64,000 nt of DNA from the NCBI GenBank assembly GCA_029582265.1, contig CM055817.1:31601097-31665096 (forward strand). Direction: 5' to 3'. This DNA comes from Zoroaster sp. YZ-2022. Taxonomy: Eukaryota > Echinodermata > Asteroidea > Forcipulatida > Zoroasteridae. Position 1 is the stretch's first letter; each line of letters begins with the position of its first letter. Position numbers and translations under genes: made by a program. Under the pieces are notes generated by a model. That model was not told the DNA's origin. It searched no databases and was given only the letters and a program-made list of their open reading frames with translations. Shown in pieces: positions 49,294 through 64,000 of this stretch.

Positions 49294-49416
49294 AATTTGC
49301 GTAGTTTGTTTCGGATGTAGACATGTAGTAGTATGTTAGATGAGGGTTCTGGACCAGTTACCCAAAAATGGGCGTGGTTGATGATGAGATAAAAAAGAGG
49401 GAGGGTGGGTTGATGA

Positions 49417-49444
49417 TGACGTCATCAATTTTTTGATGACGTCA
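49417..49444. promoter_or_regulatory. Two perfect TGACGTCA (CRE/ATF-type) sites, 20 bp apart
   Basis: TGACGTCA occurs at 49417-49424 and 49437-49444, each inside a longer near-palindrome (TGATGACGTCATCA in the first). They lie about 125-150 bases before the polymerase start at 49568. CREB/ATF sites occur in early promoters of several animal DNA viruses, so a role in host-driven early transcription is plausible. This is inference only. Confidence 0.5.
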
Positions 49445-49567
49445 TGAGAGTGTCGTGGGTAGTAGTAGGGGGATAACATTTTATATCACCAAAAAATTTG
49501 AAAAAAATATTACCAAAAAAATAGAAAAACAAACAAATAAAAAATATTATCTAGTATTAATAATAAA

Positions 49568-52500
49568 ATGGAAGAGAGAAGAACATATTTATCAAAGTGG
49601 ACATTAGCGGAATTGAAAGAGTTTGAGCAAGAACACAGACCAATCTTTTTAGTACAAAACCAAAAGGGTAAAGTAGATAAACGGGTTTATTACGAAGCAA
49701 TAAAAAGATATATAAAACGGCATAAACAAAAGCCATTATATAAATTAAGTTTAGCCGAGCTTAAAGAGTATATAAGAATAAATAATTTTGTTTTACCCGA
49801 ATCTTACCGCGGGAAAAGAGGAGAGCACACTAAAGAAGGGTATATCATCGCTATTAAAAGGTTTCGCGGTTTAGAATCCGAGTTGAGATTTGACGAACCA
49901 CCCATCGACGGTGGAATATGTTTACGCGAACGATGGATGTTTGTACCGTTTGGTCATAGCAAAGAGGAAGATTTAAACATATTTTGGGAAGCGGCAAAGC
50001 CAAAGATTATCGAAAAGTTTAGTTTAGACTTGCAAGATTTTACATCGTTTAAGTTTATGATATGTATACGTATATCTTTACGTAAGGATAAACCGGACGG
50101 TACTATCGATTATGAAGATCCTAATTTTCATAATAACGGACAAATTGTTTTATTTAATTTGAACGACATCGAAAATGTACTCAACACTGTTTTTTCACAA
50201 ATTCAAGAGTCTTTAGAAAAGTGGACGCAAACGGTTCTAATTGGGTCGTATATCGTATTGCAGATATGAGTATTATCTACAAGAGATATCAACCTTTGAG
50301 AGGCGGTTCTTATATCGAGCTATGTAACTACATAAAAAACAAAAAAAACGTGTATCAACGTAAAAAACAAAGACGACGATTGTTTACGATGGGCGCTGCG
50401 CAGCGCTCTTTTTATCGCAAAACATCACTCGGATAGAACGAGTAGCTATCCGACGGAAGATGGTTTAAATTTTAATAATATCGACGCTCCAACTCCGATT
50501 AATCAAATTAAGCAAGTGGAGAAACAAAATTGTATCGCGCTAAACGTTTGTGGTTACGAATCAAAATCAATTATAGTTAATAAACTCAGCGAGCAACCTA
50601 AAAATATAGATCGCATTAATTTATTATTAATTCATAAAGGAACTAAATTTCACTACGTTTGGATTAAAGATATAAATAAATTACTTTACGATCAAACAAA
50701 ACACACAAATCGTAAACATTTTTGTTTGAGATGTTTACAGGGTTTTTCAACAGAAGCGTATCTTGAAGATCACGCAAAAATGTGCGAGGGAGTTAACAAC
50801 AGACCGACGGCGATCGTGATGCCGAAAAAGACAAAAACGATACTAGAAAATGTATAAATCTTCATAAAAAGATGAAAGTTCCTTTTGTTATATACGCCGA
50901 CTTTGAAAGTATAATTTGTAAGATTAAAGACGTGAATATGACAAATACTAAAAAAAACTACAAGAACACGTTGTTTGCGGCTATTCATACATTGTCGTTC
51001 GATGCGACGGTCAAACTTTCTCTCCCGTTGTATACCGAGGAGAAGATGCAGCGGAGCATTTTTTAAATGAATTACAAAAAGAAGAAGAACATATTAACGA
51101 GATATTTGCAAAACCTAAAGAAATGATGATGATGACTGAAGAAGATGTCGAATATTATGCGAGTGCAAAAAAATGTTGGATATGCGAAAAAAAAGGTATT
51201 TAAAACAATCAACAAGTTTAGAAAAGTACGCGATCATTGTCACATCACCGGGAAATACAGGGGCGCGGCGCACAATAGTTGTAATTTTAAACTAAAAATA
51301 GAACTGGGTAAAACATTTATTCCGGTCGTATTTCATAATTTGCGAGGATACGACTCTCATCTCATTATGCAGGCCGCGAGTCGTAGCGAAGGAAAAATAA
51401 AATGTATTCCAAACAATATGGAAAAGTATATTTCTTTTTCAATCGGGCAACTGCGATTTATCGACAGCGATCAATTTTTACTAGCTTCGTTAGATAAACT
51501 CGTAGAATCCAACAACGTTTTTTCAATCACTAAAAAGTACGAGCATGATTTAGAAAAATGTAATCTTTTAAAACAAAAGGGTATTTATCCTTACGAGTAC
51601 ATGGATAGTTTTAAAAGATTTAAAGAAAAAGAAATTCCTTTACAAGAACAATTTCATAGTCGATTAAACGGTCAGCACATTACTGATGAAGAGTACGAGC
51701 ACGCAAAGAAGGTATGGAATACATTTGATTGTAAAACTCTAGGTGATTATCACGATTTGTACGTGCACACCGATACTTGTTTATTGGCGGACGTTTTTGA
51801 AAATTTTCGTACTACTTGCGTACGAGAATACGGTTTGGATCCAGCTAATTATTACACAAGTCCAGGATTGAGCTGGGACGCTTTGCTGAAACATTCAAAA
51901 GTTTGTCTAGAGTTATTGACGGATATCGACATGTATTTATTTATAGAAAAAGGTTTGAGAGGAGGAACGGGTATGACAAGTAAACGATACTCAAAAGCAA
52001 ACAATGTTTATTTAGATGATTACGATCCATCAAAACCAACGAGTTACATTATGTATTTAGGCGCGAATAATTTGTACGGCTATGCGATGAGTCAACCTTT
52101 GCCAACGGGTAATTTTAAATGGATGACTAAAAAACAAATTGACAGACTCTTAAACAAAGGATTAAAACGTGGAAAAGGATGCATTTTAGAAGTTGATTTA
52201 GAATATAATCAAGAATTACACTATTCTCACAATGCATTTTCACTCGCGCCAGAGTCGTTGAGGGTAGCGAAAGAATGAATGTCACCGTATCAGCTCGAGC
52301 TATTAAACAACAAATCGGCTCCAAACGTTACAAAATTAGTTCCAAATTTATACGATAAAACAAACTACGTGCTTCATTATAGTAATTTACGATTGTATTT
52401 ACAACTCGGTATGAAACTTACTAAAATACATCGCGTTTTAGAATTTGATGAATCGCCTTGGATGAAATCATACATTGATTTAAACACTCAACTCAGAAAA

Positions 52501-53376
52501 AACGCAACGTCAGAATCTGAAAAAGATTTGTATAAACTCATGAATAATTCAGTCTTTGGAAAAACGATGGAAAATGTACGAAATCGTGTTAACGTAAATT
52601 TAAAGCGATTAAACGATGAAAACGAAAAAAAGCAAATGCTTAAATTATTCGCAAAACCAAATTTTGCCGAGGCTAAAATGTTTAAAGATCACGATCTAGT
52701 GGCGATTCACATGCATAAAACAAATCTTGTACTCAACCACACAGTATACGTCGGAATGAGCATACTTGAATTATCTAAAGCTTACATGTACGATTTTTAT
52801 TACAATCATTTAAAAAAGAAATACGGCAAGATGTGTAATTTACTTTACACAGATACGGATAGCTTATTACTCGAGATTCAAACGGCTGACGTTTATAAAG
52901 ATATGGAAGAAGACAAGCATTTATACGATTGTAGTAATTATAAGAAATAATTTTTTTTATATTCTGAAGAGAATACAAAAGTAATCGGTAAAATGAAAGA
53001 CGAGACTGCGGGAACTCTAATCTCCGAATTTGCAGGTTTAAGACCAAAAATATATTCGATACTTTTATTGAATGAAATATAAATAAAAATACCTACCGGC
53101 TTAAGACCTAGTGTTTTTTCGAAAGAAATAAGAAAAGCCAAGGGCGTTAAAAAACAAGTGTTAGAAAAGAAAATTAAACACGAACAAAATAAAGAAGTTT
53201 TAGACGATTTAAAACCATTACGTCACCCTATGAATTTTATTAGAAATGAAAAACATAGATTATATACAACGCGAGTAAATAAAATATCACTCTCTCCTTT
53301 AGACACAAAGAGATATATTGTACCAGATGGAATACACACTTTAGCTTACGGACATTATAGCGCATCAATAACTTAA
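49568..53376 (+). pseudogene. polB: Protein-primed-type DNA polymerase B (DNA_pol_B_2), broken
   Basis: Starts at ATG 49568 after TATTAATAATAAA. The first part carries two similar motifs (TLAELKEFEQEHR, SLAELKEYIRINN), probably a repeated SAP/Rho-N-like fold. A zinc-finger-like HFCLRCL...H...C follows near 50720-50795, then exonuclease motif I (YADFES, ~50894), a second Cys/His cluster (HCHITGKYRG), Exo II (FHNLRGYDSH), Exo III (LYVHTDTCLLADVF), motif B (NNSVFGKTMEN) and motif C (YTDTDS, 52846-52863). Motif A has GANNLYGYAM with Gly (GGC at 52060-52062) where this family has the catalytic Asp. Frame changes occur near 50222-50265, 50340-50370, 50835-50860, 50985-51010 and 51190. Stops are TGA 52276-52278, TAA 52948-52950 and TAA 53080-53082. 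It would copy the viral genome from a protein primer; this copy cannot. Confidence 0.92.
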
Positions 53377-53444
53377 AGAATTAACCTACACTATAATCGT
53401 TTAATCGGTGGATTTTCTGTATCTGGCGGTACAATTTGTATTTC

Positions 53445-54404
53445 TTATTTTACAAAACTACGCGCGGGACCTGCGTCTACGCCCGGCGCAGAGGCTAAAT
53501 AATAGAAGATGGGTTGATTAGCAGCTTTCATCGTTTTAGCTAATCTATAAATTGTTATACTCCATATAGGATCGGTCGCGCGACGTCTCGTATCTTTTTC
53601 ACTTCACCGGGTGCGTATAAATACCGAACTAAACTGCTAGTTGGGATTCTTTTTTTCTTTCTTTGAAGCTGTTGAGGCTGTATTTTGCTCGATAACGGAC
53701 AACTTAATCGCGTCTTTAGGTTTTAAATTGACAAGTCTGGTCGTTTCGTCGTTTAATGCTTTTACGACTAGCGGTAATCTTTTAACCTATTCTCTATTTC
53801 TCGTATCCGTCGCTATTTCTTTAGCGTATTGATGAGAAAATGTTCTTTCGGCTAACGTTCTATTGAATCGTTCTACTATACCCTGAGCTCTATGATTACC
53901 GGCTTCGCTTCTTTGGATTTTTACATCGTGTTTACTCATTAATACACCGACGGTCGACATAAATTCTTTTCCAGGATCGACTTTTAAAATTGTTGGCCAA
54001 GTGAGCGGCGAACGTTTATAATTTTTTTCAAACGCTAGAACGACTTGAGCGGCAGTTTTATCGGTTAACGGTTCAGCTTCTTTATATCTGCTGGCTTCAT
54101 CCGCAACGGTTAACGCGTACTTGTACGTCTTTTTACCTATACTATCGTGCGGAAGAAACAATAAATCCGCTTAATGAACCTCATTTGGTTTTTCCAACGT
54201 ACTATTTGAACTGGTCGGTCTTGGAATGTATTTAGGATAGGGTAAATAAATTTGCCACAGCGCTTGCTTTTTTATCCACCGCGAAACAATTTTTTTATTC
54301 ACCTTAGTTTCTTTAGCTAATTTATTAATAGCGTCGAGACCTTTCCAGTATCCTTTCGGACTATAATAGACGTTTTGTAGCTTTAGTTTTATACGTTTAT
54401 CCAT
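53445..54404 (-). pseudogene. int: Retroviral-type (rve) integrase, broken
   Basis: Starts at 54404 on the minus strand and converges with the polymerase gene. A basic helical N-terminal part (54404-54174) with KKIVSRWIKKQ is followed by the catalytic core 54170-53790. Its acidic triad lies in ADLLFLP, KVDPGKEF and IVERFNRTLAE. A C-terminal SH3/chromo-like part with VRYLYAP and RRRATDPIWS is still visible to 53445. Breaks are a TAA at 54173-54171, just before the first catalytic Asp, a TAG at 53789-53787, a TAG near 53635 and a frame change near 53590. Integrases of this type insert Polintons and adintoviruses and make 5-6-bp target duplications. The three catalytic residues remain, so decay is recent or partial. 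Confidence 0.9.
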
Positions 54405-54426
54405 TTTTAATATTGTGCAATATATT

Positions 54427-54672
54427 TTATTCCTTAGAATTATTAGACATAACCGATTTTTGTAAAATTCCTTGATACTCCAACCACATTTGCGTCATCG
54501 AAGCCGCCGCAACGGTCGTGGTTAGTTTTAGCCCGTCTTTTATATCAAATTTTCCTACATTGGCTGGTTCTATGCTTAATACTTTTTTACCGAGCATGCT
54601 GTATAAAATGGTAAAAAGTCCCAAAACGGCACTGTGATAAGCTGAATTGACGATTCCTTTTGTATCCATCAT
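54427..54672 (-). CDS. Small hydrophobic protein (81 aa), viral
   Basis: An intact minus-strand ORF begins with two Met codons after GTATAAAAT, 23 bases before the integrase start. The first half is hydrophobic (VLGLFTILYSMLGKKVL), one likely membrane helix. A second stretch (LTTTVAAASMTQMWLEY) is amphipathic. The C-terminus is polar (MSNNSKE). It has no recognisable enzyme motif. Similar small membrane ORFs accompany capsid genes in related elements as far as I recall, but a function cannot be given. It could be an internal membrane or minor virion component. Position between the integrase and the next minus-strand gene suggests co-directional transcription. Confidence 0.7.
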   Translation of the reverse strand: MMDTKGIVNSAYHSAVLGLFTILYSMLGKKVLSIEPANVGKFDIKDGLKLTTTVAAASMTQMWLEYQGILQKSVMSNNSKE

Positions 54673-54717
54673 ATTTTATACTTGTTAAATATAATTTTTT
54701 TTTAAATTGTATTCCAT

Positions 54718-55144
54718 TTAAAAAACAGCGAGTTCTCTCGTCGGCGGTGGCGGTGGGGCAGGTTCTGGCGCTGGCGCGGGTGTTGTTTTTGACGACGCTG
54801 ACTCTTGTTTGGAAAACAAGTAATAAGCACCCAAACCTCCAACGGCTAAGGCAATAGCGATATAGTAGTCGTAGCTTATCTCGTTGTTTTCTTCTTTTAT
54901 CGGTATATCACTTTGCGACGCTTGCGGCGCCGCATAACGAATTTTAGTCGCGCCTTTTTTTTAATTCTTGTTTTTTCTTTTTATTAAGTTCCGCGACTCT
55001 TTTTCCAGCCGCGACTCTGTTTGTTTTTTTATATTTTTTATTGATCGGTTTCGTTACTGGCACTGACGACGGTGCGCTCGCTTGGCGCTGGCGCGGTGAA
55101 ACGTTTATCGTCTGATTCACATTCTCCAACTCGTTCGTCTCCAT
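54718..55144 (-). pseudogene. Basic protein with C-terminal membrane helix and Pro-rich tail, frameshifted
   Basis: The minus-strand frame from 55144 (METNELENVNQ) carries a strongly basic segment (NRVAAGKRVAELNKKKKQELKK) and stops at 54944. In another frame, from the 8-T run at about 54954-54961, sequence continues to a TAA at 54718. That part has a hydrophobic helix (YYIAIALAVGGLGAYYLF) and a Pro/Ala tail (PAPAPEPAPPPPP). The most economical view is one gene broken in the homopolymer. The start overlaps the end of the 55038-55673 ORF by 107 bases in a different frame, so the two may instead be a single frame-broken gene. Basic domain plus membrane anchor suggests a virion protein; this is inference. 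Confidence 0.6.
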
Positions 55145-55673
55145 CGTTTTTATTATCTATACAAGATTCTTCTTTTTGTTTTAAATGTTTTGCTGTAATT
55201 AGCGCTGTACAGAGCGGTGCTATCAACATGCCGTACTTGTAGTATATTTCACGCGCTACGGTAGAAAGCATGCTCGAAATGAATGGATCCTTTTCTAAAT
55301 CTGTAATTAATTTACCTTCATCGTCAATTTCAAAATGATGACCGTATAAATCAATGCGATTTAAACTAAATCCTAATAATTTGGCATATAGCGTTAGAAC
55401 GGCGGTACCTAAAGACTCTGTTATATCACGACCTAATTTAGTTTCGTATTGCATGTATAATACATCTCGCTCTTCCGTAGACAAAGCTTCAATGTCGCTG
55501 ACGGAATACTCTTTACCGATTTTTTTTTTGGAATCTCCTCCCGCTACAACGGACAAGAGCCGTTTATCTCGTTGCTTTTGCTTTAGCAGCACGTTGTCAT
55601 TCGTAACAACATCCGCGGATGGTGAGCTTAACACGGATGGATTTTCGGTTAATAGTTTATGAAGGTCTTCCAT
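55038..55673 (-). CDS. Uncharacterised viral protein (211 aa)
   Basis: An open minus-strand frame starts at ATG 55673 just after TATAAATACTTATAATAA. The N-terminal third is polar and basic (KQKQRDKRLL, GGDSKKKIGKEY). The middle is acidic with a helical segment (LSTEERDVLYMQYETKLG) followed by a more hydrophobic part (TAVLTLYAKLLGFSLNRI). The C-terminal tail is Glu/Asp-rich. I do not recognise the family by motif. The truncated copy at 55687-55839 shares its N-terminus and promoter. Its end overlaps the next frame (55144), so the real C-terminus may differ if a frameshift lies there. Confidence 0.68.
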   Translation of the reverse strand: MEDLHKLLTENPSVLSSPSADVVTNDNVLLKQKQRDKRLLSVVAGGDSKKKIGKEYSVSDIEALSTEERDVLYMQYETKLGRDITESLGTAVLTLYAKLLGFSLNRIDLYGHHFEIDDEGKLITDLEKDPFISSMLSTVAREIYYKYGMLIAPLCTALITAKHLKQKEESCIDNKNDGDERVGECESDDKRFTAPAPSERTVVSASNETDQ

Positions 55674-55686
55674 TTATTATAAGTAT

Positions 55687-55839
55687 TTATAGAATAATCA
55701 GTAAACAAAAAAAAACAGAGAGTAACCAATAAGTAATGCTAGATAATCCATCAAGAACGGAGAAAAGACGCTTTCGCTTAAGCACGTTGTCTCTTTTATC
55801 ATTCGATGGTGGGCTTAACATGGATGACTTTTGTTCCAT
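55687..55839 (-). CDS. Short paralogue of the next gene's N-terminus (50 aa) with hydrophobic tail
   Basis: The minus-strand ORF begins MEQKSSMLSPPSNDKRDNVL, which resembles the start of the 211-aa protein at 55673 (residues ~14-35, including SSPSADVVTNDNVL). The 18 bases before both ATGs are identical (TATAAATACTTATAATAA). After about 33 residues the similarity ends, and a hydrophobic segment with TYWLLSVFFCLLIIL finishes the ORF. It looks like a partial tandem duplication that took promoter plus N-terminus and then read into a chance hydrophobic frame, or a decayed full copy. It may or may not be expressed. Confidence 0.55.
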   Translation of the reverse strand: MEQKSSMLSPPSNDKRDNVLKRKRLFSVLDGLSSITYWLLSVFFCLLIIL

Positions 55840-55874
55840 TTATTATAAGTATTTATAATTTATTTAAGTAATAA

Positions 55875-56055
55875 TTCAGTAACGAATCAGTAATGGAGAG
55901 TAACGAATCAGTAATGGAGGGTAATGAATCAGTAACCAATCAGTACTGGAGGGTATTCTACAAGTAACCTACAAGTAACCTACAAGTAATTACTAAGTAA
56001 TGGAGGGTAACCGACAAGTAACCTGCAAGTAACCTACAGGTAACCTACGAGTAAT
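55875..56055. repeat. Degenerate ~11-bp tandem repeats (AGTAACCTAC / GAATCAGTAA)
   Basis: Units such as GAATCAGTAAC (55881-55950) and CAAGTAACCTA (55961-56050) follow one another at 10-11-bp spacing, with two longer TGGAGGGTAA units between them. The stretch lies between the ATPase stop and the short paralogue's start. A helical-turn spacing suits protein binding on one face (iterons, enhancer), but simple repeat slippage is also possible. Confidence 0.75.
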
Positions 56056-56065
56056 GCAAAGTCAT

Positions 56066-56686
56066 TTAGTCTAGAATCGCATAACCGGTAGGTTGATCCG
56101 TTTTTAAAATCAATTTACAATGTTTGACTCGTTTTAATTTCTCGTGAATTTCCATTCTTAACTCTTTCGTCGGTATGACATCATTTTCTCGAAGACAAAC
56201 TTCAAACGAATCTCTATCTTTACAATAAAATAAACACACCCATTTGAGTTGCTCTCTAAAATCTTTTAATACGCTATTATATTTTTGTGAAATGATCCAA
56301 CAGCTGTGATGTGCGTGTCGACCGCTAAAATCCAAGTGTACCAATGCATTCGTCTCATCTTGACAATTTATTTTATATCGCAAATCTTTACTCGCGCTAC
56401 AATCGTCGATGATAAACAACGTTTCGTCTCCTTTGAACAAATCGCTATACATTTTTATCGCTTTGTTTAACGTATAATTTGTTAAATCGTCGACAAACAC
56501 TCGCTCGTCGTCCCAAATCCATTTTCTATTTTGATACGCGTCGTTGTCACCTAGGGTGGGGCATAATATGACGATCGTTTCGAAATGTTTTAAATATTGT
56601 TTTTGTAGCAAATTTAAAACAAATTCAGTTTTTCCGCATCCGGTTTGGCCGCAAATGAGTCCAGCGTGTGGATATTTAGGCAACAT
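56066..56686 (-). CDS. Genome-packaging ATPase (A32-like)
   Basis: Intact 206-aa minus-strand ORF. Walker A is GQTGCGKT (residues 13-20). Walker B is TLFIIDD (89-95), followed by CSASKDLR. A conserved block (FSGRHAHHSCWIISQ, ~124-138) carries the sensor region. This arrangement is that of the A32/FtsK-HerA packaging ATPases of Polintons, adintoviruses, poxviruses and giant viruses, which move viral DNA into the capsid. At ~206 aa it is near the usual length for Polinton ATPases. It lies just after the capsid gene on the same strand (12 bases between them), a common virion-module order. The gene appears open from end to end. Start: ATG 56686 after AATATTAAAAGGAA. Confidence 0.9.
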   Translation of the reverse strand: MLPKYPHAGLICGQTGCGKTEFVLNLLQKQYLKHFETIVILCPTLGDNDAYQNRKWIWDDERVFVDDLTNYTLNKAIKMYSDLFKGDETLFIIDDCSASKDLRYKINCQDETNALVHLDFSGRHAHHSCWIISQKYNSVLKDFREQLKWVCLFYCKDRDSFEVCLRENDVIPTKELRMEIHEKLKRVKHCKLILKTDQPTGYAILD

Positions 56687-56698
56687 TTCCTTTTAATA

Positions 56699-57988
56699 TT
56701 AGTCGCTAATACTAATAACCGGCAGATTCAAAACGCCCATTTTTATAACGATTTGCGCATCCATAATAATAAAAGTATACAGGGCCAATTCACCCGGGGC
56801 TTCCTCTTCTTTATCTATTTTAATGGTAATTCCATCGGATAAGTTTTTTACTCGTCTTCCACTTCCGTGTATTTTATTGTCATCGCTCGTTCTCATATCT
56901 AAAAATAAACCGTATCGATTGAGTAAATAATCGGATTGTTTGACGTTGGATAAATTTAGAGCTTTAACGACTTGTATAGCGTGTTGTTTGTTTGAATCAC
57001 CAACATATTTTTGAATTTCTTCATACTGTTGATACCTTTTCATTCCGTGCGCGTAGAGTTGATTGGGAACACCGTCGATCGTAATTTCAACTCTATCGAT
57101 TTTTGGATTATAAAATTTGTTAGTTTCTTTCACATTAGGTTCTTTAAATAAAAACAATATTCCTTTCATACTTTTTGCGGGGGTATTTAAATTTATTTCC
57201 CACGTCGTATCGCGTTTGTTTAACGCGGTCACGCCCCGTCTTAAAACGCGATCAAACAATATCGACAAACGGTTGCTATATTGATTTGTAATCGTTCGAA
57301 CGAGTTCCGGCTGATGAACGACTTGGAATTCTAAAGAAATCCCACTTATGATATATTTTGCATTATCGTCGGTGCTTTTAATCACGTTTGAACATTTATT
57401 AAACACGAGTTCGTAAGTCAGTTTACCTCCGAGTCCCGATTGGTAGAAGGGCAGATGATCGGTCAACAATGCAAAATCGAGCGGAATATAATACCTATTT
57501 TTATATGTATCCGCGATGGCTTTATCTTTTCCTCCGTTGCCCGCGGGAACCTTATCGCTAGCGTTTATTCTTAAGTTAGTCACGTTAGGATCTTCGATTC
57601 CTTGATACGCTAGATTGTCGCGTTGATCTTTCGTTAACCATTCGTCTTTATAACAATTGAACACATCCGCATCGTATAATGAATATATTTCATTTCCTTC
57701 CATTTCAATGACTATATGTGTTACGATAGCTCTATCTATGTTTTGTACCATCGTTCTCGTATCATCATCCGCAGAAAAAAGATCAATGTTGAAAGCTAAT
57801 CGAGCCGTATTCGGAACGATGACGTCATTTTCTGCTAAATTCGGAAAATTAACCGTCAACATTTGATTTTCGGTAATGGTGGCCGGATTGTTTGTAATGA
57901 CGACTTTTTTACACAATCCTTTTATACCTCTCGGTTCTCTTAATCTTCTGTATGGATCGAGTACATCTCCGTACGTATTATTTGCCAT
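56699..57988 (-). CDS. mcp: Probable major capsid protein (double jelly-roll type)
   Basis: An intact 429-aa ORF. The N-terminus binds a Pro/Arg-rich arm (LREPRGIKG), then beta-rich sequence (VVITNNPATI, DVIVPNTARLAFNIDL). About residues 83-125 include HIVIEMEGNEIY and FNCYKDEWLTKDQRDN, then IPLDFALLTDHLPFYQ and, later, SILFDRVLRRGV and MKGILFLFKEP. I take these from known Polinton/adintovirus capsid proteins as hallmarks of the double jelly roll. It is shorter than many Polinton capsids (usually 500-700). It sits next to the ATPase and starts divergently from 58044. An alternative is the frame-broken gene at 61213-59870. The assignment would be tested by structure prediction. Confidence 0.75.
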   Translation of the reverse strand: MANNTYGDVLDPYRRLREPRGIKGLCKKVVITNNPATITENQMLTVNFPNLAENDVIVPNTARLAFNIDLFSADDDTRTMVQNIDRAIVTHIVIEMEGNEIYSLYDADVFNCYKDEWLTKDQRDNLAYQGIEDPNVTNLRINASDKVPAGNGGKDKAIADTYKNRYYIPLDFALLTDHLPFYQSGLGGKLTYELVFNKCSNVIKSTDDNAKYIISGISLEFQVVHQPELVRTITNQYSNRLSILFDRVLRRGVTALNKRDTTWEINLNTPAKSMKGILFLFKEPNVKETNKFYNPKIDRVEITIDGVPNQLYAHGMKRYQQYEEIQKYVGDSNKQHAIQVVKALNLSNVKQSDYLLNRYGLFLDMRTSDDNKIHGSGRRVKNLSDGITIKIDKEEEAPGELALYTFIIMDAQIVIKMGVLNLPVISISD

Positions 57989-58043
57989 AGTTTATAGTTT
58001 GTAAATATAAAATAAATACAATTTTTTTTAAATAAAAAGTAAA

Positions 58044-58465
58044 ATGGTGAGTGTAGCGATGATGATTGGAGGCGCGGTAGTCAACGCGTTGGCATTTACC
58101 GGATCAAATGTTTTATTTTCTCGAAGTGGTCATGAAGAACAAAAAAGACACGATTTAGCGATAGAACAACTTTCGAAAGCCAGAAACGAATTTAGTAAAA
58201 AGCGTTTAAAATATCTAGATTATTTAAACGAAAAAATACAAAAATAATCAAGCGCTGTAAGAACGTTGACGAAGCGATGAATGAATATTATAACATCACC
58301 GGAGAACAAGTTGATTTACCAACAGATTTATACGACGAACCTAAACTTACAGATGTTTACGTTCCTAGCGAAGATCAAAAAACGCGAGAAATCATATTCA
58401 TTATTTTAGGAATGTGTGCTGTAGGTTACGTGAGTTATAAATTATTAAAAAAAGATAAAAAGTAA
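58044..58465 (+). pseudogene. Small membrane protein with two hydrophobic ends, one frameshift
   Basis: From ATG 58044 (after TTTAAATAAAAAGTAAA) a frame of 67 codons has a hydrophobic start (VAMMIGGAVVNALAF), then a charged helical part (AIEQLSKARNEFSKKR). It stops at 58247. The following frame is open from at least 58235 and runs to 58465 through NVDEAMNEYYN to a second hydrophobic helix (IIFIILGMCAVGYVSY) with a Lys tail. The two halves meet in an A-rich stretch near 58235, so one base is probably missing or extra. Together they suggest a viral membrane protein of about 140 aa with helices at both ends. Such genes occur beside capsid genes in related elements, but I cannot give a function. 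Confidence 0.7.
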
Positions 58466-58472
58466 TTATAAA

Positions 58473-59819
58473 ATGGCAGCAGGAGGACATGATCTTATGG
58501 TAGCGGATCCATTATTACAAAATCTTGACGAAGATGATGATGAAAATTATGAATTAGCTAATGATGGATATATTGAAGATGATAGCATCAACACTCAACT
58601 GACACCATCCAATTGGGAGCTGCCCAGTCCTGTCGGTGACTCAGACTATTATAAAAGTAAAGAAGATGCCGTTGATGCATTTTACAAGCAACTCAAGTAT
58701 ACGAATGTTGAAAAAGAATATAGTAGATTTAAATACAGGTATTCCATAATACTTTATTTTGTAAAATAATACGGTAATTTTATACGATTACCTAACTTGA
58801 CAGTAAAAACGGGTGAACATTTTTTAGCAGAATCTACTTTTAAAAAAGAAGGTAAAGATTTATTTCACGAACTTTTAGGTTTACAGAAACCAAAATTATC
58901 GGAAGAAAGTAAAAAGTCTATATTAAATGTTGTAAAAGAGACAGAAAAACCATTAAATGTTGTCGATAAAACAATCTCCGCCGAGAATAAAGTTTCACCA
59001 ACGGGACGAAAGTTACCATCTATACCGAGACAACAGGTAAAGAAATCAGTACAAGTAGAAGAAGCTATCGAAATGGCGGTTATGACTCTCAAAAGAGATC
59101 AAGAAATTCAAACAGAATTAGACATTCCATGGCGAGAAATCTTGGGACTCGATAAAACCTTGCAAAAGACTCGAGGTCAACTTGAATTAAATTTAGCCAA
59201 ATTGAGCCAACTTGACGAAGAAATATCTAATCTTGAAAAATAATACGTAAGCGCTCGAGATCGAAACGATGAAGATGAAGATAAAACAGAAAAACTACGT
59301 GAACAACTGCGAGATAAACAAAATGAAAGACGAATGAGATTAGAAGTCGCGAGTACGAATGCGCGCAATCTTCGTAGTCAAATTAATAGAATTAAAGAAA
59401 CGTTTCAAAAAATGTTAGAAAAAGATGTTACGTTGGGTGAAAGAATTAAAACTTTATTTAGAGAACAAGGTATAACGATCGTTAGTATATTAACGGCTTT
59501 TAGTATGACCATTGGTCTTATCGTCAAATCGATCGGTAAAACTGTAAGTTCAGTTTTACCAACACCTATACCCCCTACGCCTAGCGGCGGCGGTGTAAAA
59601 GAGTGGAAACAAAAAACATTAAAACATCTAGCGAGTGTATTAGCGAAACTCGGAGAAAAAGCTTTAGCCGCTTTACCGGCTATTATCGGTGCGGTTATAA
59701 GTTGGTTATTTAAAACAGCTTCCAACATCGTCACATGGACGGCAGAACATTTATGGTTGGCTTTGACGGGGGTTGGAGTTTTAATTTTAACTTACGTGCA
59801 GAAAAAAACTCTAAAATAG
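58473..59819 (+). pseudogene. Long coiled-coil protein with C-terminal membrane helices, broken
   Basis: ATG 58473 follows TAATTATAAA. Pieces 58473-58769, 58797-59243 and 59334-59819 follow one another and are joined by open stretches. The start is acidic (LDEDDDENYELANDG). The middle is charged and helical (ELNLAKLSQLDEEISNLEK, then KTEKLREQLRDKQNERRMRLE), a coiled coil. The C-terminus begins LGERIKTLFREQGITIVSILT and has several hydrophobic helices (AALPAIIGAVISWLF, LWLALTGVGVLILTYV) plus a Pro/Gly linker. The stops at 58767 and 59241 interrupt it; the third part is the best preserved. It is probably a large virion or membrane-spanning protein conserved in invertebrate copies of these elements. 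It has no enzyme motif. Confidence 0.7.
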
Positions 59820-59869
59820 CAATTCATAAATCATAACGCCAAGTCCACTTAAAATCGCAAAACCAATAA

Positions 59870-61213
59870 TTAAAGCATTGTTTTCTTCTTGGTGGCTATC
59901 GCGCGATTCTTCCAAATGTCTTGAGTTATTGTAGCCTCCAAAGAGTCTTGGGCTATGGTAGAGGGAGATTCTTGCACACTCGTTGTTGTAGGGCTCGATA
60001 CTAGATCATTAGATTCTTCCACATGCTTAGCGGTTAACGACGACGTCGATTGTAAAAGTAAAATAGGATGAGGAACGGGTTCTGAATTTGTATCTAAATT
60101 TGAACCTAGAGATAAATCACTCGTCGCGATTAATATATTATTGTTGTATCCTGCGTACGTGCCTATTCGTAAATTCATATCGCTCAGCATCATGTATAAA
60201 TTTTCTCCGATAGCAAAGTTTAATTGAGAACGAGCGTATTGTAAATTATCTTGATATCGTTGAATAGAAGATTGTAAATCGACCGGAGAATCAATCTCAG
60301 CATCCACTATATTTATAAATTCACGCTGCGCGTCTAAACCGGTACCGGGTGTAAGAAATCCACTTTTAACTCGTACTTGAGCTCCCAATAATGCGTAAAC
60401 GTACGTTCTTATAGAGTCGTTTATGCGTTCTGACGGACATTCGTAAAACCTTGAGCTAATCCCAAAGACAATATAAATTTAGTCCACGCTGTTTCAACGC
60501 GTTCAGATTGAGAAATGTATTCAACAACGTACGAACCCCCAATATCATTAACGCTATTCACTTTATCAAGTTTAACATTTTCTTTATCAAAATACATCCT
60601 TTTATTGTTTTGATGAAACAAAGTTGAATTGTCATACTTTTTCCCTGGTACTGGATTGTAGCCGTAAATGTTCAAATAATAAGCCGTTCCCAATCCATTA
60701 GATTTGTTGTCTACTCGTTGTTTCCAATTATCAGATATTGAGAGGTGAAATTGATTACATAGTCTATTGTACGCGCTAATGTCTATATTGTTGTCAAACG
60801 CGTCATTAAAGATTTGAAAAGATGTAGGACAGCTCATTTCTTTGAGCATTCGTCTAATTTGATAATGTACGTGAAATAAATAAAAAACTACGAATCACCA
60901 AGTTTGAATGATTTAAATGCTCATAACCCACGCCACATCTCGTTGTACCGCAATACATTACAAAATTTATTTGATTTTGATAAAATTTTAGCGGGTTAGA
61001 AAGCCAATCATTTACAACATCGTTGCTATCAACGTCAGGTAACACATAATTTTGAAATGGATTAACGAGTTCTACGCTAAAAAACTCGTTCTCGTTAATA
61101 TAAATTTTTATACTCGTCAAATCACTAGCGTTAAAATTTTGAGGCGCGTTAAAATTTCCAGATTGCGGATATGGAAATGAAAAATTACTCTGAAACGCTA
61201 ATGGAAACGTCAT
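59870..61213 (-). pseudogene. Likely structural protein of ~450 aa, two frameshifts
   Basis: Three minus-strand frames follow each other: 61213-60854 (MTFPLAFQSNFSFPYPQ..., TTRCGVGYEHLNHSN), 60849-60421 (MSCPTSFQIFN, FHLSISDNWKQR, YLNIYGYNPVPGKK) and 60388-59870 (GAQVRVKSGFLTPGTG, RIGTYAGYNN). Open sequence crosses the joins, near 60854-60880 and 60420. A protein this size rich in aromatic residues and beta segments, on the opposite strand to its neighbour, suggests a second capsid or fibre component. It has no recognised catalytic motif. I do not know its role. It starts inside a perfect palindrome shared with the divergent gene at 61249. The last part converges on 59819. Confidence 0.65.
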
Positions 61214-61251
61214 TTTATTATTAAAAATTATAAATTTTTAATAATAAAATG
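61211..61251. promoter_or_regulatory. Perfect 19-bp-arm palindrome covering both start codons (bidirectional promoter)
   Basis: Left arm 61211-61229 and right arm 61233-61251 are exact inverted copies, separated by ATA. Each arm ends in the start codon of one gene: CAT at 61211 (minus gene) and ATG at 61249 (plus gene). Each thus has TTTTTAATAATAAA immediately before the ATG. A symmetric A/T motif touching the start codon suggests a very short 5' leader and a shared initiation site. Confidence 0.85.
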
Positions 61252-61929
61252 TATCATACCTTTGAAATCGAAATTGAAAAAAATGGCGAGTCGGTTCAAT
61301 TAAATGACGCCATCGATAATCGCGAGGGCAATCTTGCAATTTTATTACATAGCGTAAACATTTGGGTGGGATATTACAACGTGCGTAAAAAAGAAAAAAT
61401 AATCTATCGTACAGTGGGTGAGCGACAAGATGTCGTAAAGTTTGTCGAACCGGGCCTTTACAACATTAACGAAATTATCGATATTATAGTAAAAAACGCG
61501 CCTTGGATCACTTTCACCATCGATAAAACATCGGGTGTTTTCTTGCTAAATTTGACTCAAGAAAACAAATCCGTCAAATTTACATCCGGGTTAGCTAATT
61601 TACTCGGGCTTCACAACGAATTTCTAACTGTGGGAGAATATAGTAAAACAAAAATTATGTACAACTTTTTAAAATTCTATACATTCATTGCGATCAAATT
61701 TCTACAAACGAAAATTATTTTAACGGTAAACATTGTACTATTTTAAACGCTTTTCCCTTGCAAGGTAAATCGTTCGGAGAAAGTATGTGGATGGAATATA
61801 AAAATCCATTAATGAAAACATATAAAAAAAGATACTTTTAGCGCATTGAGTTTTCAAATTAAAGATTCAAAGGGTAGAGACATAAATAATCACGGTTTTC
61901 CCGTTATTTTAAATCTAAAAGTTATATAA
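61249..61929 (+). pseudogene. Possible penton-like minor capsid protein, two frameshifts
   Basis: From ATG 61249 the frame begins MYHTFEIEIEKNGESVQL and continues with beta-rich sequence (ILLHSVNIWVGYYNV, LYNINEIIDIIVKNA, ITFTIDKTSGVFLLNL) to about 61665. The frame then changes near 61670 and again beside an A7 run near 61825. Sequence in the shifted frames stays open to a TAA at 61927-61929 (FPLQGKSFGE, NHGFPVILNL). The beta content and position suggest a single-jelly-roll minor capsid (penton) as in Polintons. This is inference: I see no diagnostic motif. The gene lies head-to-head with the 61213 gene and directly before the three-copy family. Confidence 0.6.
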
Positions 61930-61931
61930 AT

Positions 61932-62393
61932 ATGGCGAGCATTTACGGGCCTCCTCGAACGAGCGGCGTTGTTGCTAAAGATAGAGACGAAATTGTACGA
62001 GCAATCTCTCACTCTGGTGAAATTTATCAACACCACGGATACATCAACAGAGATGAAATTTTACAAACGTTACCTTTAGTCGAAAAATACAACGTCATAC
62101 TCGGATGGTGGGCTACGTCTAAACTACCCTTTTTCATGTTTATCGAGGCGCCAACGTACTGCTCTGTTTTTGTACATTTTACAAAAGCTAATAATTTTAC
62201 TTCATATTCATCAACGCGTGATTATGCGGTTGACGTTTATTATATTCCTTCTCCAGCGCTAAATAATAAATTGTATTTTATCGATGATGAAATGTCGCAT
62301 TTAAGATACGAAATGTGTTTTAAAATGCGAAATGTTCAAAAAGTGTTTGTAGAGGCAACCTTTTTCGGTGCGCTAAAATCTGTTTCAATATAA
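61932..62393 (+). CDS. Tandem-family protein, copy 1 (153 aa, intact)
   Basis: ATG 61932 follows TTATATAAAT, three bases after the previous stop. The protein starts MASIYGPPRTSGVV, then has HHGYINRDEI, and a core with VILGWWATSKLPFFMFIEAP, SVFVHFTKANNFTSY and LRYEMCFKMRN. Its end is FVEATFFGALKSVSI. There is no signal peptide or strong membrane helix, and no enzyme motif. It is mostly beta and aromatic, so a small jelly-roll or receptor-binding fibre knob is possible, but I cannot name the function. Two more divergent copies follow at 62441 and 63004. This is the only undamaged one and is therefore the reference for the family. Confidence 0.8.
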   Translation: MASIYGPPRTSGVVAKDRDEIVRAISHSGEIYQHHGYINRDEILQTLPLVEKYNVILGWWATSKLPFFMFIEAPTYCSVFVHFTKANNFTSYSSTRDYAVDVYYIPSPALNNKLYFIDDEMSHLRYEMCFKMRNVQKVFVEATFFGALKSVSI

Positions 62394-62440
62394 AAATGAA
62401 AAATTTACCGTTAAATTAATTTTAATGTTATACTATAAAT

Positions 62441-62902
62441 ATGGAAGACATTTATGGTTATCATAACTACGTCACTAACGATGAACACGGAAAGGTACAA
62501 ACAATATCTCACACCTACGTCGCTAAAGATGGAGACGGAGGTTCACAATCAACTCCCTATCCTAGTGGAACTTATCGTCACCACGGATACATCGACAGAA
62601 ATTAAATTTTACAAACGTTACTTCTAGTCGAAAAATACGACGTCATACTCGGATGGTGTGCTACGTCTAAACTACCCTTTATCATGTTTAACTACGCGCC
62701 AACGCACTACTCTGTTTTTATAAATTTTACACGAGCTAATATTATTAATTCATATTCATTAACACGTGATTATGCGAAGAACATTGTTTATTATATTTCT
62801 TCTCCAGTGCTAAATAATAAATTTTATTTTATCGATGATGAAATTTCGCATTTAAGATATGAAATGTGTTTTATTCTGCATAAGAAACAATTTTTTTTGT
62901 AG
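62441..62902 (+). pseudogene. Tandem-family protein, copy 2 (nonsense codon)
   Basis: ATG 62441 follows TATACTATAAAT. The frame keeps the shared HHGYI, VILGW, SKLPF, FTRANI and LRYEMCF segments but has a different N-terminus (MEDIYGYHNYVTNDEHG). A TAA at 62603-62605 (codon 55) interrupts it where copy 1 has GAA, and the frame continues to 62902. The C-terminus after LRYEMCF also differs from copy 1 and ends early. Compared with copy 1 the core is clearly similar, so this is a diverged duplicate that has decayed. Confidence 0.82.
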
Positions 62903-63003
62903 AGGCAACCTTTTCAGGTGCGCTAAATTCTAAAATCTCTTTCGATATAATAATTAAAAGCTACCCATTCTTTAAAATTTAATCTTTTATTATTATTAAA
63001 AGA

Positions 63004-63480
63004 ATGGCGAGCATTTACGGTCCTAGTCGAACGAGCGTAAAGAGTAATCAAACAAGTAGCGGTATCGTTAGCAACGATAACAACGTTTTTGAAAAAACTG
63101 GTCATATCGACAGCGATGAAATTCAACAAAATATAACGTTGTATAAATTATACGATATATTCTACATTCAATGGAACGGTTCGGCAAATATCGGTATACC
63201 GAGGTTTGCCATCTTTGAACCGATAACAAACTGTACAACTTTTTCTAAAATAATATACAACGATGAATCTTTTTATTCCAATGTTATGAAACGAGAAATA
63301 AACCCACTATACCAGATGTTTTTGAGTTTGATGCTAGATCGCAAGATTATTTTAATAATATGGAAGCGAAACACATAGAATGTGGAATTTGCTTCAAAAT
63401 AGAAAACTGCAGAAAAAAGTGTTTGTACATGCGACCTTTTCGGCTCTTTAGAAACGGGAATCTGTTACGATATTAAAATT
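63004..63480 (+). pseudogene. Tandem-family protein, copy 3 (frameshifted)
   Basis: ATG 63004 follows TATTATTATTAAAAGA. The N-terminus is again MASIYGPSRTS, and GHIDSDEI matches GYINRDEI of copy 1. The middle is far more divergent (IQWNGSANIGIPRFAIFEP). The open frame ends at 63378, but another frame continues with a Cys-containing CGICFKIENC and a KVFVHATF block like the end of copy 1. The exact end is uncertain; the shifted frames can be followed to about 63450-63480. The copy is either inactive or a single base from open. Confidence 0.72.
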
Positions 63481-63535
63481 AAAACTTGGTCGTTAAATTA
63501 TTATTTTTTAAATATTTTACTATTAATAGAAAACA

Positions 63536-64000
63536 ATGAGCGTAGAATCAACGAATGTACTTTATCCAAATTTACGGTCTATGACGGATGATGCGAACGA
63601 TGCTAAATCATTTCGTCTGCCAAAAATCGACGATATTCAAAAAGAATTACGAATCGAAATAAATCATCGTGAAGCCGTCTATAAAATATATAATAAAATC
63701 ATCAACACTTGCTCCATCGTAGAAACTCTCGCTGAATTGGGCTGTATGGGAGCGGGAGCTATTGGAATCGCGAGTATCGCCACCGTTATAGCAGCGCCGG
63801 TTGGGCTTGTTTTAGAAGGTTTAGCTTTAGGGTTGGGTGGTGCGGCGTTTGCTCTCAGATACGCGAAATATAAATTATCTAAAAAAGCTAAAAAACACGA
63901 TGAAATTATAGTTTTAGCATCGTCTAAACTCAACACGATCGAAAATCACGTTTCAAAAGCCATCGAAGACGGTGTCATTACCCAAGATGAATTTTTACTC
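63536..64000 (+). CDS. Helical protein with Ala/Gly-rich hydrophobic centre, cut by the window end
   Basis: The frame starts at ATG 63536 after ATTAATAGAAAACA and is open for 155 codons to the last base. The N-terminal part is polar (PKIDDIQKELRIEINHREAVYK). A hydrophobic Ala/Gly-rich region follows (GCMGAGAIGIASIATVIAAP, GLVLEGLALGLGGAAFAL), then a basic helix (KYKLSKKAKKHDEIIVL). It ends with IEDGVITQDEFLL, still open. Proteins with this charged helix, small-residue hydrophobic hairpin and basic helix pattern occur often in invertebrate genomes with these elements. The function is unknown; a membrane-active virion protein is possible. The C-terminus is outside the window. Confidence 0.75.
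   Translation, partial: MSVESTNVLYPNLRSMTDDANDAKSFRLPKIDDIQKELRIEINHREAVYKIYNKIINTCSIVETLAELGCMGAGAIGIASIATVIAAPVGLVLEGLALGLGGAAFALRYAKYKLSKKAKKHDEIIVLASSKLNTIENHVSKAIEDGVITQDEFLL

Follow-up and report, generated by a model that had tools for sequence, protein, structure and literature searches.

Polintons (Mavericks; Polintoviricetes) carry a protein-primed polymerase of the terminal-protein/OTU type, an rve integrase, an A32-type packaging ATPase and a double-jelly-roll capsid within inverted repeats, as described previously (PMC11071308, PMC4642659). The domain order of the polymerase is given as terminal protein, OTU, exonuclease and palm (PMC11071308), and a maturation protease of the Ulp1/adenain type is present in the majority of Polintons (PMC4642659). 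Adintoviridae are defined by a hexon that BLASTP recognizes from reference adintoviruses and by a C-terminal chromodomain of the integrase (PMC11071296). The same paper reports alpha/beta pairings of hexon and polymerase among adintoviruses and a "Meldvirus" chimera, Meld23486, in which polymerase and integrase accompany pox-like capsid genes; chimeras of capsid and replication modules are therefore already known. Cnidarian capsids outside the main Maverick-Polinton cluster are reported in PMC10120064. Here, we analyzed 64,000 nucleotides of a chromosome of the asteroid Zoroaster sp. YZ-2022 (contig CM055817.1; G000:C2:31601097-31665096 of the searched genome, which comprises 1.0 Gb in 616 contigs), referred to below as the window. 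An initial annotation, made from the letters alone, had described its right-hand part, from position 49300 on, as a largely complete Polinton/adintovirus-like virus. Our analysis identifies this element, with a probability of about 0.92, as an integrated virus of the Polinton (Maverick) type, 15,497 bp long and decayed, that belongs to a very large family in this genome.

The element begins at position 49327 of the window, slightly to the right of the start first proposed, and ends at position 823 of the 10 kb of chromosome that directly follow the window on the right (L009), i.e., 823 bases beyond the window's right end. A terminal inverted repeat and a 5- to 6-bp target duplication had been suggested as features to look for on extending the contig in this direction, and both were found, the duplication being 5 bp (CATGT). 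The two repeats are about 240 to 250 bp long each and align over 270 columns with 85.6% identity (E value of 1.9e-81). This alignment does not stop at the repeats but takes in a few flanking bases, the flanks forming an imperfect palindrome; the start of the element was fixed by relatives: L024, L026 and L034 all begin at AGTAGTATG. A second copy with two readable ends (C10:6808952-6822646; 13,695 bp) starts with AGTAGTATG at both ends and is flanked on both sides by AACGC, so that a 5-bp duplication is present in both copies whose two ends were read. When the flanks of the window copy were joined with one CATGT, a single frame (DVDM-LTYIVAQFQ) ran across the site, with a stop further left. 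The right flank (L009:729-1646) resembles a reverse transcriptase fragment of a long interspersed nuclear element (LINE; RVT_1 E value of 0.0075, under the cut-off), a label that relies partly on motifs; this LINE-like fragment is apparently the insertion target.

Inside these boundaries, the polymerase (+ strand) is followed by the integrase, small membrane-type genes, the ATPase and the capsid gene (- strand) and then by small genes on both strands (Table 1), in exactly the order read initially, with about a dozen smaller genes in a compact layout. The same gene set and order recurred in independent copies, mostly with 45 to 92% protein identity per piece (lowest, 29%), which together with the rve and Pox_A32 matches and the inverted repeat speaks against a chance reading; right halves were read directly in L023 to L026 and L033, and left halves in L027, L028, L032, L034 and L035. 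Among the scored matches in the genome, all 18 pairs of polymerase and capsid lying within 10 kb of each other (window included) had the polymerase on the strand opposite to the capsid and downstream of it, compared to about 0.29 pairs expected by uniform placement. Exceptions to the order were L022, which shows only three right-hand genes; the C10 copy (L034), in which the three small genes that separate ATPase from integrase are absent except for the remains of one; and L029, in which capsid and ATPase lie far apart (see below). Two findings would have contradicted the initial annotation, namely that polymerase, integrase and ATPase come from unrelated elements with different boundaries or that this gene set is absent from all related elements; neither was observed. 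A rival reading is a mosaic, in which polymerase, integrase, ATPase and capsid stem from separate elements inserted next to each other. In its favor, the integrase and the capsid have relatives that occur with another polymerase, and a second related fragment is present about 4.5 kb further right. However, a single set of inverted repeats, bordered by the 5-bp duplication, encloses all of the genes; linked pairs agree in their orientation, and the same gene set and order is found in other copies. Such a mosaic is therefore very improbable.

The window polymerase consists of several open pieces separated by frame breaks and one in-frame stop. Two relatives (L027 and L028) have the terminal-protein-like and OTU-like parts in a single frame, which in L028 (614 amino acids [aa]) also includes the start of the polymerase. 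A search of IMG/VR with the polymerase yielded one contig (L030), which encodes a 1285-aa polymerase as well as an rve integrase (33.2 bits) and an A32 ATPase. We presume that NSVFGK, YTDTDS and DHCH are polymerase motifs and that CLRWAL marks an OTU-like domain. A protein-primed polymerase with terminal-protein and OTU domains, as in Polintons, is thus recognized by position and motif, following the domain order in PMC11071308, and not by profile match; the only Pfam match of note of the N-terminal piece was Phage_int_SAM_4, under the cut-off. Palm matches are abundant in the genome: the best 150 of 2901 first-look candidates were scored, and all 150 matched with 77 to 95% identity, apart from the window. 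The rve integrase was likewise counted as present. Its broken window piece matched PF00665 with an E value of 1.7e-6 and 28.6 bits, compared to a curated cut-off of 32.6, and both pieces fall within a single 238-aa frame in L027. The ATPase matched PF04665 (Pox_A32) over the cut-off (E value of 2.9e-10), which provides the A32/FtsK-type packaging ATPase of Polintons. Among the PHROGs matches that matter, the only one was terminase for this protein (5.4e-7). No relative of the ATPase was found in PDB by sequence, and none of the nine pattern stretches from an IMG/VR search with it was confirmed.

The fourth Polinton hallmark, a double-jelly-roll major capsid protein, was identified from a predicted model rather than a solved structure. 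The 429-aa protein had no match in Pfam or PHROGs and no convincing match in PDB by sequence, and an IMG/VR search with the capsid alignment gave seven pattern stretches, none of them confirmed. The protein database contained 492 homologues, the best of which was 58% identical among the 120 listed. A model built from the window protein and 35 of these listed homologues reached a predicted local distance difference test score (pLDDT) of 76.7 and a predicted template modeling score of 0.81. Fold comparison placed it closest to a chain of Paramecium bursaria chlorella virus 1 (PBCV-1; Z score of 24.4, with a root mean square deviation of 5.8 over 343 aligned residues; another chain, 22.2), followed by faustovirus (23.1), grouper iridovirus (22.0), African swine fever virus p72 (21.8) and vaccinia virus D13 (19.2). 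Sputnik (17.5), mavirus (16.1), and PRD1 and adenovirus hexon (14.0 each) scored lower. Foldseek also ranked iridovirus and PBCV-1 chains first. The protein is thus predicted to be a double-jelly-roll capsid protein with a fold nearest to Nucleocytoviricota capsids. A giant-virus-like capsid combined with Polinton replication genes fits separate travel of capsid and replication modules.

The capsid comparison also bears on whether the element could be a genuine adintovirus with a hexon too diverged to be recognized, its likeness to giant viruses reflecting the lack of solved adintovirus capsid structures. In a viral library, giant-virus capsids led (best E value of 1.1e-17), and an Adintovirus sp. 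entry, labeled penton capsid protein, came 9th (5.5e-15), close to the giant-virus rows. The layout of polymerase and integrase fits as well, since a polymerase with an OTU-like domain together with an rve integrase is also found in Adintoviridae. Neither the hexon match nor the integrase chromodomain that define the family (PMC11071296) is established for the window element, and no chromodomain was reported for the integrase frame L027:2664-3374 at E values of up to 0.5. We consider an adintovirus possible but doubtful. Of the double name given initially, the Polinton half is supported by the features described above, while the adintovirus half is not established: neither a chromodomain nor an adenain-like protease was found.

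Several observations weigh against classifying the element as a Polinton. No Pfam polymerase model was matched by the window polymerase pieces, and the element has no proven minor capsid protein; the predicted model of the 165-aa candidate minor capsid (penton) protein had a pLDDT of 35, which is too poor to use. A capsid protease was likewise not found: no Ulp1/adenain-type Pfam match was obtained for 20 window pieces at E values of up to 1 or for 10 frames of relatives at E values of up to 0.5. In only 3 of the 13 relative loci searched could the outer ends of the repeat be seen; several of the other 10, including copies with the second polymerase described below, show only the inner part of the repeat. 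Finally, the target duplication is 5 bp, whereas that of a typical Polinton is 6 bp. The element shares with Polintons the polymerase type, integrase, ATPase, capsid type, inverted repeats and size (after PMC11071308 and PMC4642659). It differs from them in the unrecognized protease and minor capsid protein, in the 5-bp duplication and in its relatives, among which a PCNA-like gene and a second lineage of polymerase occur.

The initial annotation had correctly noted that no cysteine protease is visible in the window, but its suggestion that one may lie to the right was not borne out. The last 823 bases of the element hold only a cysteine-rich frame without a protease match. Small cysteine-rich proteins near the right repeat were observed at L009:347-598, L024:5098-5406, and L025:754-1080 and 1097-1399 (in tandem) and also in L033. 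The 211-aa protein was considered as a protease and rejected, as it had no Pfam match above the cut-off.

The PCNA-like gene was detected in L024, which covers the right half of the C10 copy; it follows the last small gene and precedes the right repeat. It is split into two frames and matched PF00705 (1.7e-8) and PDB entry 3k4x (1.2e-12). In this copy, the clamp lies inside the repeats, and the polymerase is of the window type. An open 337-aa clamp (L039:1474-2487) gave stronger matches to PF00705, the PCNA N-terminal domain (1.1e-9), and to 3k4x (3.6e-14). The C-terminal Pfam model of PCNA was not reported for it; some solved clamps aligned over residues 64 to 304 and beyond. The relatives' gene resembles the PCNA of cells and large DNA viruses in having the N-terminal domain; it differs in showing 26 to 30% identity to the eight database clamps found (L039) and in belonging to an integrating element of 14 kb. 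Of 667 first-look clamp candidates in the genome, the best 150 were scored, and all 150 matched (57 to 91% identity, apart from the query), many of them open and many with stops. Protein-primed polymerases are not known to need clamps, and a clamp of its own is unexpected in a virus of this type. The likeliest role for the encoded protein would be polymerase processivity or the recruitment of host repair proteins. A Polinton-encoded clamp was not found in the partly covered literature searched on polintons or adintoviruses with sliding clamp or PCNA, including PMC12198294; PCNA is named among the domains of endogenized viral regions in a passage of PMC11244446 that does not state the virus. 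Finding a clamp in an element of 14 kb whose polymerase is protein-primed is relevant to the kinship between small protein-primed viruses and large DNA viruses that use PCNA.

The second polymerase, represented by L005:859-1617 (minus strand), was revealed by a search of the genome with PF03175, which gave 60 matches (91 of 1074 candidates scored). Seven of the eight best loci contained integrase pieces 72 to 100% identical to those of the window (L004 had none), and the window polymerase did not match these loci, except weakly in L006 (23%). Two copies that were followed, on C14 near 4890 kb and on C16 near 35742 kb, carry window-type small genes, ATPase and capsid together with the second polymerase in the same slot; the C14 capsid was taken from the list of scored genome capsid matches. 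This polymerase has the motifs LDVTSLYP and YTDTDS and an OTU-like cysteine and matched PF03175 with an E value of 5.3e-27. The two polymerases share 22 to 29% identity over parts of the exonuclease and palm (best E value, 4e-7, for L030 versus L005; 4e-4 for window pieces). Integrase DNA was 80 to 88% identical between the polymerase groups (28 pairs), compared to 85 to 91% within the first (6 pairs) and 81 to 94% within the second (21 pairs). Such similar integrases next to such distant polymerases indicate that the polymerase and the rest of the element have different histories. In an integrase tree, the second-polymerase group fell together with support of 42 to 93, and the number of exchanges is not readable from this tree. 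Because one genome holds two distant polymerases in elements that otherwise match, module exchange can be compared directly.

If the PCNA-like genes and the second polymerase were unrelated repeats that came to lie near the elements by chance or by later insertion, the window copy, in which no clamp match was found at the corresponding place, would be readily accounted for. Clamps were also near scored capsids or polymerases only in part, with 8 and 26 pairs among the best 150 of 667 candidates and the best-scoring capsids and polymerases. In contrast, the 8 clamp-capsid pairs within 15 kb (0.44 expected) all had the clamp upstream of the capsid and on its strand, and the 26 clamp-polymerase pairs within 20 kb (0.9 expected) all had the two genes on opposite strands with the clamp on one side; both counts include the query copy. 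Moreover, the C10 clamp lies inside repeats with a 5-bp duplication, and the second polymerase sits exactly in the polymerase slot of both copies followed. This reading is thus quite improbable. We regard it as an even bet that a protein-primed Polinton lineage acquired a PCNA-type clamp that now serves its replication, that it replaced its polymerase with a distant one, likewise protein-primed, and that it retained a capsid with a predicted fold nearest to the capsids of giant viruses.

By analogy with known families, an intact member would encode a protein-primed polymerase to which a terminal protein is joined by way of an OTU-type protease, and the OTU domain would cleave off the terminal protein. 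The linear DNA would be copied from its inverted repeats by protein priming, the A32-type ATPase would package it into the double-jelly-roll capsid, and the rve integrase would insert it, producing the 5-bp duplication. Relatives show an exchanged polymerase module and, in many members, a PCNA-like clamp; these genes are observed, and their part in replication is presumed.

The window copy itself is dead, because its polymerase and integrase are broken, as are two other genes; a live copy in the window was rejected for the same reason. The copy is decayed and not simply "largely complete", as the initial annotation had it. The ATPase and the capsid gene are intact frames, as first noted, and the 211-, 119-, 165- and 153-aa frames are open as well. 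Of the small genes listed initially, those at 58473-59819 and 59870-60849 are pieces of two single genes. For the capsid, the best 98 of 3147 first-look candidates in the genome were scored, all 98 matched (79 to 85% identity, apart from the window), and 78 had no stop inside the match. The ratio of nonsynonymous to synonymous substitution rates (dN/dS) was determined for 10 of 12 capsid loci, including the window (L010); L018 and L021 were omitted due to a different start and a gap. For the 36 pairs of the nine other copies, three of which have one stop each, the median dN/dS was 0.16 and the median dS 0.28. Purifying selection on many capsid genes suggests that the elements spread in capsids, as viruses, rather than as bare transposons. 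Pairs with the window gave values of 0.21 to 0.65. Such values are expected of a copy on which constraint is no longer complete, although membership in a separate sublineage is also compatible with them.

Table 1. Features of the integrated element (window positions unless a locus is given)
Feature	Position	Strand	Relatives or match
Target duplication CATGT, left copy	49322..49326		Right copy at L009:824-828, beyond window; exact 5-bp match
Left terminal inverted repeat	49327..49568	+	Starts AGTAGTATG; partner at L009:572-823, beyond window
Polymerase, N-terminal piece (terminal-protein region by position)	49568..50269	+	Recurs in L027, L028, L034
Polymerase, OTU-like piece (CLRWAL)	50336..50857	+	34% to L030 polymerase, E 4e-22
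Polymerase piece with DHCH, HNLRGYD, ANNLYG; ends at in-frame stop	51136..52278	+	48% to L030 polymerase
Polymerase, palm piece with NSVFGK, YTDTDS	52279..52950	+	47% to L030 polymerase
Polymerase, C-terminal piece	53083..53376	+	34% to L030 polymerase, E 1e-12
rve integrase, two open pieces (54171-54494, then 53787-54170) with a stop between	53787..54494	-	PF00665
81-aa protein	54427..54672	-	Conserved in relatives
80-aa protein	54718..54960	-	Conserved in relatives
211-aa protein	55038..55673	-	No Pfam match above cut-off
A32-type packaging ATPase, 206 aa, open, Walker A GQTGCGKT	56066..56686	-	PF04665
Major capsid protein, 429 aa, open, predicted double jelly-roll	56699..57988	-	Structure model and fold comparison
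88-aa frame	58199..58465	+	Part of 147-aa frame in L025
One gene in three pieces (single frame with two stops)	58473..59819	+	369-aa frame in L026, 362 aa in L025
One gene in two pieces (frame break)	59870..60849	-	342-aa frame in L026
119-aa protein	60854..61213	-	Conserved in relatives
165-aa protein, candidate minor capsid protein	61249..61746	+	3 database homologues
Tandem set of a small gene (MASIYGP...), middle copy decayed	61932..63378	+	Several relatives likewise have more than one
Last small gene, exits window	63536..64000	+	205-aa frame in L026

Further DNA was observed in and around the copies. In the relative L029, capsid and ATPase are separated by some 7 kb of other DNA, in which there are frames of 505 and 315 aa. 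The second related fragment beyond the right inverted repeat of the window copy (L009:5304-7907) is diverged (DNA, 66 to 76%; protein, 40 to 81%) and in the opposite orientation. To the left of the element, a satellite array with a 226-bp unit (positions 20561-44802; about 107 copies with 95% matches) occupies more than one-third of the window.

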